From assembly GCF_010119195.1 (NCBI RefSeq), contig NZ_WRXL01000001.1, forward strand, positions 124,001 to 188,000: 64,000 nucleotides of DNA, read 5' to 3'. The position numbers and the translations under genes were made by a program. Positions 53,542 to 59,327 of this stretch are shown in pieces. This stretch comes from Haloarcula salina. Lineage in GTDB: Archaea; Halobacteriota; Halobacteria; Halobacteriales; Haloarculaceae. The notes below the pieces were generated by a model. That model was not told the DNA's origin, did not search any database, and saw only the letters and a program-made list of their open reading frames with translations. How positions within the stretch are numbered: the first letter of the stretch is position 1; every line of letters begins with the position of its first letter.

Positions 53542-54003
53542 ATGGAATTCAAACGGTTCTTCAACGACGACGACGCTGTATCGCCCGTCATCGGGGTCAT
53601 CCTGATGGTCGCGATCACGGTCATCCTCGCGGCCGTCATCGCGACGTTCGTGCTCGGTCTGGGAGACCAGGTCAGCAACACGGCCCCGCAGGCAAGTTTC
53701 AGTACGGAATACGATTCCGGCGCGAACGATGTTGATGTCACCCACGACGGCGGTGATTCAATTAAGGCGAGCAATCTCTATTTCCGGGGAACTGGCTTCG
53801 GAAGTGATAGCAGCGACGATATCGATGGCAACAACCAGAACTGGCCTGACTCCGCTACTAGTGGGTCCAACAGCAAAGTCGTGGCCGGTGACCGCGTCGT
53901 GGTCTCCGTAACGGGCGGCAGCTACGACTTCAACGTCGTCTACGAGTCGGCGACCGGCGACAACTCCGCGACCCTCGCAACGGCGACCGGGCCGAACGCG
54001 TAA
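53542..54003 (+). CDS. Haloarchaeal type IV pilin, first copy
   Basis: A 153-residue pilin. The class III signal peptide [18 protein letters not shown] is followed by the hydrophobic stalk [24 protein letters not shown], the hallmark of haloarchaeal pilins (pilin N-terminal domain), with processing by the prepilin peptidase before or near Val13. The C-terminal 110 residues are a beta-rich adhesive domain. The middle is AT-richer and less conserved than the ends, and the protein ends GPNA. Surface filament for adhesion. A paralogue lies 0.95 kb downstream with a winged-helix membrane protein between. Confidence 0.85.
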
Positions 54004-54114: not shown

Positions 54115-54690
54115 ATGAGCAAGCAAGTACATGGAGACGGCTCTGACGACGAGCAACACATCTCCAAAGGGGAGATCTTCGACGTGCTCCAGAACGAGCG
54201 GCGTCGACACACCCTCCAATATCTCCGGGAGAACGGCGGGCCGGTGTCGCTCGGTGATCTCGCGTCGCACGTCGCGGCCCAGGAGTACGATTGCCCCGAC
54301 GCCGACGTGACGAGCGCACAGCGAAAGCGCGTCTACACCACGTTACAGCAGTCACACCTCCCTCGGATGGACGAAGCCGGCATCGTCGAGTACGACGACG
54401 AGACCGGAACGATCGAACGGACCGAGCAGACGGAAGAGCTCACCGTCTATCTCGAAATCGTTCCCGGGAGCGAGTTTCCTTGGCGGGAGTACTACCTCTC
54501 GCTGGGAGCGGTGAGTCTGGCAATCGTCACCATCCTCTGGGTCGGCGTCTATCCGTTCACGCTCATTTCGCCGCTGGTCTGGTGGGCGGTGCTCTCCATC
54601 GTCCTCTGTATCTCGGCCGGATACCACACGTATATCGGTCGGGAGATGACCCTCACCGAGTTTACCGAGCAATCCGACTGCGACGACTGA
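54115..54690 (+). CDS. DUF7344 winged-helix protein with two membrane helices
   Basis: A 191-residue protein. Residues 15-115 are the DUF7344 winged helix: KGEIFDVLQNERRRHTLQYLREN, SLGDLASHVAAQE, then RKRVYTTLQQSHLPRMDEAGIVEYDDETG. The last 65 residues carry two hydrophobic helices (LGAVSLAIVTILWVGVYPF and PLVWWAVLSIVLCISAGY), so the DNA-binding domain is attached to the membrane. It is preceded by a strong ribosome site (GGAGG, 54103-54107) and lies between two pilin genes, so it is a good candidate for a membrane-tethered regulator of pilin genes; that is inference. Confidence 0.82.
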   Translation: MSKQVHGDGSDDEQHISKGEIFDVLQNERRRHTLQYLRENGGPVSLGDLASHVAAQEYDCPDADVTSAQRKRVYTTLQQSHLPRMDEAGIVEYDDETGTIERTEQTEELTVYLEIVPGSEFPWREYYLSLGAVSLAIVTILWVGVYPFTLISPLVWWAVLSIVLCISAGYHTYIGREMTLTEFTEQSDCDD

Positions 54691-54831: not shown

Positions 54832-54952
54832 TGGATCCCTCCCATGTGCCTGAATCAGCGCACCGCCGTGAGTCAGTAAGCATCCCTTTCGATGCGTAGG
54901 ATGTTGTTACTCGGGTCGTACTCGCGGTGTGCGACGAAAGGCAACCGAAACA

Positions 54953-55408
54953 ATGGATATCAAACGTCTCATTCAAGACGACGACGCAGTCTCGCCGGTC
55001 ATCGGGGTCATCCTGATGGTCGCAATCACGGTCATCCTGGCGGCCGTTATCGCCTCCTTCGTCCTCGGGCTCGGGGACCAGGCACAGCAGGCGACCCCGC
55101 AGGCCAGCTTCTCGTGGGAATACGAGGGCGGTGGCACGGATACGGTCACCATTACGCACGACGGTGGGGACTCCATCGAAGCACAGGAACTCTACGTCCG
55201 CGGTGACTTCGATAGTGGTGGAGACTCTGCAGACACTTGGGGAGGAGGGACTTTTGATGGGACCTCAATCTCAGGTGCTTCAGAAGTCACTGCAGGTAAC
55301 TCGATAGATGTTGACGCAGGACCTGCGTACGAACTCCGCGTCGTCTACGAGCCCGTCGAGGGCGACACCTCCGCGACGCTCTCCGAAGACTCTGGACCGA
55401 ACGCGTAA
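54953..55408 (+). CDS. Haloarchaeal type IV pilin, second copy
   Basis: A 151-residue pilin beginning [18 protein letters not shown] with a stalk [25 protein letters not shown], nearly the same as in the first copy. The DNA is also close to identical over this part, with 26 identical bases in a row within it. The mid domain (about residues 80-125, DFDSGGDSADTWGGGTFDG) is Gly/Ser-rich and unrelated to the first copy, while the end (VYEPVEGDTSATLSEDSGPNA) again matches. The start ATG 54953 follows a long leader. Surface adhesion filament; a T-tract at 55428-55432 follows the gene. Confidence 0.85.
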   Translation: MDIKRLIQDDDAVSPVIGVILMVAITVILAAVIASFVLGLGDQAQQATPQASFSWEYEGGGTDTVTITHDGGDSIEAQELYVRGDFDSGGDSADTWGGGTFDGTSISGASEVTAGNSIDVDAGPAYELRVVYEPVEGDTSATLSEDSGPNA

Positions 55409-59140: not shown

Positions 59141-59165
59141 ATAGCGGGCGGTAGATTTGAACTAC
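59141..59165. repeat. Partial copy of the tRNA-Met 3' end (att-like repeat)
   Basis: The 25 bases 59141-59165 match 59252-59276 (the last 24 bases of the tRNA gene and one base after) with a single mismatch at 59149. The repeat covers the 3' acceptor strand and most of the T arm, which is the part duplicated when an integrative element inserts at a tRNA gene. Only 86 bases separate the two copies. Confidence 0.6.
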
Positions 59166-59252
59166 GCGAACACCTCGCTGACGCTCGGCGTTCTCTCGTT
59201 CAAACTCCCTCGCAAAGAATGTGCTTCTCACGTCGATGTTCGAAGCAAAATA

Positions 59253-59327
59253 TAGCGGGAGGTAGATTTGAACTACCGATCTGCGGGTTATGAGCCCGCC
59301 GGAATCTCCTGGCTATCCCATCCCGCT
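59253..59327 (-). tRNA. Initiator tRNA-Met (CAT)
   Basis: The 75-base minus-strand sequence folds into a cloverleaf: acceptor AGCGGGA pairs with TCCCGCT plus discriminator A, anticodon loop CTCATAA in a stem GCGGG/CCCGC, and T loop TTCAAAT in GGTAG/CTACC. The A1-U72 pair and the three consecutive G-C pairs next to the anticodon loop are the marks of an initiator tRNA. No CCA is encoded. CCTTAATG 28 bases upstream of the 5' end is a TATA-like box. Confidence 0.93.

Follow-up and report, generated by a model that had tools for sequence, protein, structure and literature searches.

Directly behind the initiator tRNA-Met gene of Haloarcula salina lies an ordinary member of an unusual and apparently undescribed, class-wide haloarchaeal family of tRNA-tail cassettes. 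These units are gene-less, measure about 105 to 155 nt, and close with a near-exact copy of the tail of their cognate tRNA. We hold the chances to be evenly balanced that they are recombining hairpin cassettes bounded by tRNA tails, a reading in which we infer both the recombination step and its enzyme.

The window, that is, the whole 64,000-nt stretch of DNA analyzed, contains a direct repeat of 25 nt (59141-59165 and 59252-59276; 24/25 identical, 111 nt from start to start), to which a sequence-only reading had drawn attention. ARAGORN and Rfam place an initiator tRNA-Met(CAT) gene at 59252/59253-59327/59328 on the minus strand (feature 59253-59327; RF00005, 58.5 bits), and its A1:U72 acceptor, AGCGGGA...TCCCGCT, can be read directly. 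As the tRNA is on the minus strand, the other copy of the repeat is located 86 bp downstream of the tRNA 3′ end, where, in tRNA sense, the copied segment begins at the T-loop and ends with the discriminator base (59162 down to 59142). The sequence-only reading had reported one mismatch, in the acceptor stem; there is indeed only one, but it falls at the acceptor/T-stem boundary, where A changes to C at 59149 (plus strand). The genes around the tRNA, which encode an HPRT-like protein, GtrA, and a glycosyltransferase, are in synteny with those of Haloarcula relatives. Elsewhere in the window, a DUF7344 gene (54115-54690) lies between genes for two archaeal type IV pilins (Pilin_N; 53542-54003 and 54929-55408) that are paralogs of each other.

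All parts of the cassette are on the minus strand. The segment copied is the end of the tRNA gene from the T-loop onward (59253-59273), our reference tail, as judged from the repeat match and a comparison of 192 units. Layout comparison delimits a complete cassette of 111 bp (59142-59252), composed of a trailer, a long hairpin, and the tail copy. The trailer hairpin (59222-59247), TGCTTC-gaacatcgacgtga-GAAGCA with GA/GA mismatches, appears in the fold and has counterparts in other cassettes. The long hairpin (59151-59209) is recognized by R1, our covariance model of this structure, as a divergent family member (34.9 bits, E 9.8e-6). By fold and arm tally, it contains an inverted T-arm copy, AGTTTGAAC (59198-59206), which pairs with the T-arm copy GTTCAAATC that forms the 3′ arm (59154-59162; repeat match and fold); the terminal loop (59179-59182) is GTCA, of the GNNA type and closed by C-G within GAGC-GTCA-GCGAG (sequence and loop tally). 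The tail copy itself (59142-59162) is the core of the repeat at 59141-59165, and it is supported by the repeat match and by a test on 40 tRNA genes.

In that test, a copy of the gene's own tail (19 nt, at most 2 mismatches) was found within 420 nt downstream of 16 of the 40 tRNA genes of this genome, with 10 of the copies exact. None of the 40 had such a copy upstream, where the best candidate showed 6 mismatches, and a cross-control using the segment of another tRNA gave a single match at this threshold in 1106 tests. Taken together, these counts mean that the tail copies are not due to chance, and the repeat that was first noticed in the window is real. First copies are mostly 81 to 116 nt downstream, with 270 nt at Leu-CAA. 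The layout seen in the window recurs behind about 18 tRNAs of the H. salina genome, tandem pairs of units are found at Gly-TCC, Lys-CTT, Thr-GGT, and Leu-TAA, and all the R1 matches listed for this genome adjoin tRNAs.

Read in tRNA sense, a unit opens with a stretch rich in T and a short trailer hairpin that contains GA/GA mismatches, continues with the long hairpin, and ends with the tail copy. The 5′ arm of the long hairpin is an inverted T-arm (for example, GATTTGAACC), followed by a short internal loop, an inner stem, a tip, and the T-arm copy, after which comes the acceptor strand up to the discriminator base. The copy starts at the T-loop and leaves the 5′ strand of the T-stem uncopied. 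No CCA end is present in the tail copies, which stop at the gene end; thus, their source is the DNA of the gene and not the mature tRNA, and an element copied from mature tRNA is ruled out. Between the penultimate base and the start of the T-loop, the 192 units show an identity of 0.89-1.00 to their cognate tRNA, although these were picked at 4 mismatches or fewer, and the unbiased figure is the 16/40 of the test above. Cassette tails of 29 tRNA species were found.

The hairpin fold is, as far as the alignments tell, under selection. When 40 long-type units, drawn from many tRNAs and genera, were aligned without gaps, the covariation score was 0.322, compared with 0.108 ± 0.009 after shuffling (0/500), with 97.9% of cells paired and 10 pairs showing double changes, and the signal was lost when the partner was slid by one column. 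The units had been picked for arm complementarity, which favors helix 1, whereas helices 2 and 3 were unselected, and it is in the latter two that compensation is strongest (for example, GC/CG/UA at columns 17-56). Moreover, the inverted arm varies with the T-loop of the tRNA to which it belongs (A:T in 132 cases, G:C in 36, mismatched in 7). G-U pairs are more frequent in the arms than A-C mismatches, 69 against 22, or 40 against 15 when counted as events of tRNA type and position, an excess which suggests that the tRNA-sense strand is the one that folds, as RNA or as single-stranded DNA. The tip is usually C-GNA-G or C-GNNA-G, with C-GNA-G in 67 of 106 triloops; GNA and GNNA loops cannot firmly tell the two kinds of nucleic acid apart, and they offer only a hint of a DNA-specific minihairpin.

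In the main rival explanation, the cassette acts at the RNA level: as a structured 3′ trailer on the tRNA transcript, it would serve in processing, stability, or regulation or as a decoy, and the hairpin would be selected as RNA. The sense-strand fold, the compensatory changes, and the G-U excess all agree with this possibility, as does the MFE z-score of the window region (-3.2). Cassettes are also always downstream of the tRNA and in its orientation, a placement that would likewise be expected from RNA-level selection. Nevertheless, a role as RNA leaves unexplained why the copy is identical to the cognate tRNA along the whole unpaired acceptor strand, the final base included, and it gives no reason for the uncopied 5′ strand of the T-stem or for reordering at the tail. 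Furthermore, no Rfam family fits the cassette, with only the tRNA family RF00005 reaching the cut-off, and over half of the H. salina tRNAs lack a cassette. We regard this explanation as somewhat unlikely. A part of a promoter or a transcription terminator was rejected separately, since the cassette is not conserved as such and its T-rich stretch lies before the hairpin. The sequence-only reading had named an invariant promoter or terminator part, shared by relatives without any element, as what would count against integration; relatives do carry the duplicate without an element, but copy number and order vary, and no such invariant part is seen.

Genome-wide counts with R1 are lower bounds. 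Matches were found in at least 282 of 292 Halobacteria genomes (about 97%), representing at least 71 of 76 genera. In a phylum-wide draw, at least 28 of 30 Halobacteria genomes were matched, and the matches listed included none from the 127 genomes that represented the other classes of the phylum. All 32 Haloarcula genomes were matched, with at least 4-39 matches each. The best Haloarcula loci were directly behind a tRNA in 28 of 30 cases, most of the best loci across the class have the same position, and the few exceptions away from tRNAs that we looked at are tRNA copies that have been displaced or interrupted. We found no description of this hairpin family in the openly searchable literature.

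Such a distribution bears on the possibility that these are repeats similar to REP/BIME or PATE, moved without target duplication by a hairpin-recognizing single-strand transposase (Y1/HUH, IS200/IS605-type). Like those repeats, the cassettes are short, gene-less, imperfect palindromes outside genes, and their fold is strand-specific; in addition, Haloquadratum is known to harbor small palindrome-associated elements that are related to IS605 (PMC3119063). However, nearly all the best matches adjoin tRNAs instead of being scattered, each unit carries a tRNA-specific copy, and the cassettes are independent of a genomic Y1 transposase (PF01797), which was undetected in the cassette-rich genomes G063, G227, and G278. 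REP elements are not known to bear a copy of a neighboring tRNA, which also counts against this explanation, and we consider it quite improbable.

The number of cassettes per locus varies from none to four or more in tandem. The longest array comprises four cassettes with differing modules (tRNA-Asp, genome G021), and up to five are counted at 4 mismatches. At the initiator tRNA-Met loci of 30 Haloarcula genomes, we found zero, one, or two full cassettes, and their order differs: A-B in G003, B-A in G024, B-B in G023, and A in G029. The first three of these genomes end in one variant tail, CTTCTGGGA (in G029, CTCATGGGA), and the flank is common to all four. Given that the last tail and flank stay the same despite the change in order, the exchange point lies within the tail. 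Mixing at this tRNA also affects the modules, both trailers and hairpins (G005, G012, G018, and G020). The order changes could also come from homologous unequal crossing-over, and the whole family could in principle be an old array altered by plain tandem duplication, gene conversion, and homologous recombination between tRNA 3′-end repeats, with no dedicated mobility or function. Repeated unequal crossing-over fits the order changes, and near-identical tandem units exist, for instance, at tRNA-Glu(CTC), with a period of 122 nt. Nonetheless, the fold must be under selection for compensatory changes to occur in 29 tRNA species, as neutral copies would lose it, and we find an explanation by duplication alone scarcely credible.

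Cassettes are found on plasmids as well. In Haloarcula halophila, a 69-nt cassette splits a plasmid tRNA-Cys at the junction of T-stem and T-loop; ARAGORN finds no tRNA in the sequence as it stands and a tRNA-Cys once the flanks are joined in silico. This split gene is part of a 22-tRNA array followed by a gene for a TROVE-domain (Ro60-like) protein (NZ_CP119561, 237657-242714). A plasmid of Haloferax gibbonsii carries an initiator tRNA-Met gene with a perfect unit. As a separate observation, haloarchaeal megaplasmids bear tRNA-Met(CAT) genes that are closely related to the initiator tRNA-Met, and a direct repeat of the 3′ end immediately adjoins the one in Halomicrobium urmianum.

The sequence-only reading had recognized the copied segment as the kind used by tyrosine integrases, and this holds. 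The H. salina genome contains a 13-kb element at tRNA-Arg(TCT) (C8:262955-276112, with the tRNA at C8:276008-276112), and the virus SNJ2 is known to target tRNA-Met (PMC5867852), which removes the novelty that had been seen in an initiator tRNA as a target. The tRNA-Arg(TCT) element is bounded by 13-nt copies of the 3′ end of that tRNA; a 350-aa integrase-like ORF ends about 50 bp from the far copy (C8:262955), with a cassette immediately beyond. At tRNA-Val(CAC) in genome G017, behind a 7-kb element whose integrase is supported by Pfam, the tail of the displaced cassette is the variant GTGAGAATCC; since this tail is directly behind tRNA-Val in H. salina too, the two loci constitute a filled/empty pair. 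In genome G015, a cassette with a tRNA-Ala tail is displaced likewise. In the three cases read, the element has inserted at the true tRNA end, pushing the cassette away, and the cassette hairpin is absent from inside the element's own ends. Thus, the hairpin is a chromosomal companion of the tRNA and not the attP of the integrases.

Elements of this type, SNJ2-like and others (PMC8371274, PMC5867852), resemble the cassettes in being bounded by tRNA 3′-end copies and in restoring the tRNA gene, and in Haloarcula they occupy cassette sites too. The cassettes differ in being gene-less and about 100-fold smaller, in having a covarying hairpin, and in forming tandem arrays throughout the class; their copies begin at the T-loop, whereas the att copies of the genuine elements analyzed here are 13-20 nt. 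It had been proposed from the sequence alone that the repeat in the window may be what is left of a single large integrative element that lost its interior or was imprecisely excised. The tail is an att-type segment, elements do exist at tRNA 3′ ends in this genome, and partial tRNAs beside full ones are called remnants in Haloferax gibbonsii (PMC7921747). However, the 86-bp spacer and the copy together make up one full member of a hairpin family that recurs, conserved, covarying, and regularly sized, behind dozens of tRNAs in at least 282 of 292 genomes; random deletion cannot yield such a unit, and a genuine attR has only 13-20 nt and no hairpin inside. A relic, largely refuted by these facts, is very improbable. 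A search for an element at this tRNA in relatives had also been suggested, and none of the 30 Haloarcula loci read shows an integrase element there.

No recombinase appears to be linked to the cassettes, judging from integrase counts and the three elements read, which counts against the preferred explanation. There was no PF00589 match near the initiator tRNA-Met of H. salina, nor within 20 kb downstream of it in the five genomes searched that had this sequence. As for a dedicated host recombinase, the only PF00589-like protein kept in every Haloarcula genome checked looks like a regulator by its sequence, with a C-terminal helix-turn-helix; the number of tyrosine integrases fails to separate cassette-rich from cassette-free genomes, and the presence of Y1 does not track cassettes either. 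An origin as a viral or plasmid attP was also rejected. A strict palindrome pattern gave no haloarchaeal match in 2.9 million viral contigs, blastn with nine cassettes found none in phage records, and plasmid matches are whole tRNA copies or a tRNA-linked cassette. Some of the viral contigs, whose GC content is bacterial, carry inverted repeats, nearly perfect, of an acceptor end like that of a tRNA (TAGCGGGGCATGGATTTGAACC...GGTTCAAATCCATGCCCCGCTA), which may be connected with tmRNA, and a separate T-arm palindrome was seen in bacteria.

If the cassettes recombine, as in the reading we prefer, the tRNA 3′-end copies would serve as crossover sites, and recombination between tails would insert, delete, and reorder cassettes; the tRNA would stay intact because every cassette brings its own tail. 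The hairpin formed by the tRNA-sense strand might be engaged by a putative recombinase or by ordinary short-repeat recombination. The cassette would then be a non-autonomous passenger of the tRNA locus, in an array of att-type cassettes, and not the remnant of a virus or plasmid. In the last tails of the tRNA-Val(CAC) and tRNA-Arg(TCT) cassettes of H. salina and at two further loci, the T-loop sequence GTTCGAA is changed to GTGAGAA; these tails, common to two tRNA families, are perhaps disabled crossover sites.

A bolder version would be a gene-less, integron-like system in which tRNA genes are the platforms and cassettes of about 110 nt enter and change order via one-strand DNA hairpins whose outer stem is the T-arm of the host. 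We know of no earlier folded-strand cassette recombination in Archaea, and we consider this version unlikely. Integron cassettes with attC (PMC2727003) are likewise arranged in tandem behind a fixed site and shuffled in order, and attC, like the cassette hairpin, is an imperfect inverted repeat of 55-100 nt with an outer stem, an unpaired spacer, an inner stem, and a variable tip. The resemblance is architectural only, given that the cassettes have no gene, no IntI, a core of GTTCAAATC and not GTTRRRY, and a tRNA as platform. The integron R boxes RYYYAAC / GTTRRRY are absent from the cassettes, whose arms are GATTTGAAC / GTTCAAATC and tRNA-specific variants, and no PF00589 match marks an intI-type platform beside the initiator tRNA-Met in H. 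salina.

Short tRNA duplicates have been noticed before. In Escherichia coli, the tyrT tandem repeats (rtT RNA) are located downstream of a tRNA gene, each with the tRNA 3′ end; they concern one tRNA locus in enterobacteria, whereas the cassettes concern 29 tRNA species across a class, and the tyrT repeats are not known to have an inverted T-arm hairpin. For Haloferax gibbonsii LR2-5, 11 partial tRNAs, several directly adjacent to a full copy, are listed as remnants (PMC7921747). It is very likely that the haloarchaeal partial tRNAs, in this species and in Haloquadratum, are in part the same objects as the cassettes; the accessible portions of these publications (PMC7921747, PMC3119063) do not describe the hairpin, the T-arm complement, the order of arrays, or a class-wide family. 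True att duplicates have also been described, in Haloquadratum (PMC3119063) and in HF1-group viruses (PMC7230728).

A structured repeat tuned to individual tRNAs thus seems to have been overlooked until now, taken for "partial tRNAs" or for remnants. Searches for viral att sites could be misled, as a short duplicate of a tRNA end in a haloarchaeon is usually a cassette and not the scar of a virus. If the cassettes act as RNA, they would represent a trailer element that had not been described before and that a large proportion of Halobacteria tRNA genes carry, and if the integron-like system were true, it would be a class-wide companion of tRNA genes. If they recombine, they would constitute a new kind of gene-less cassette array, one that would account for the frequent duplication of tRNA 3′ ends in Halobacteria.
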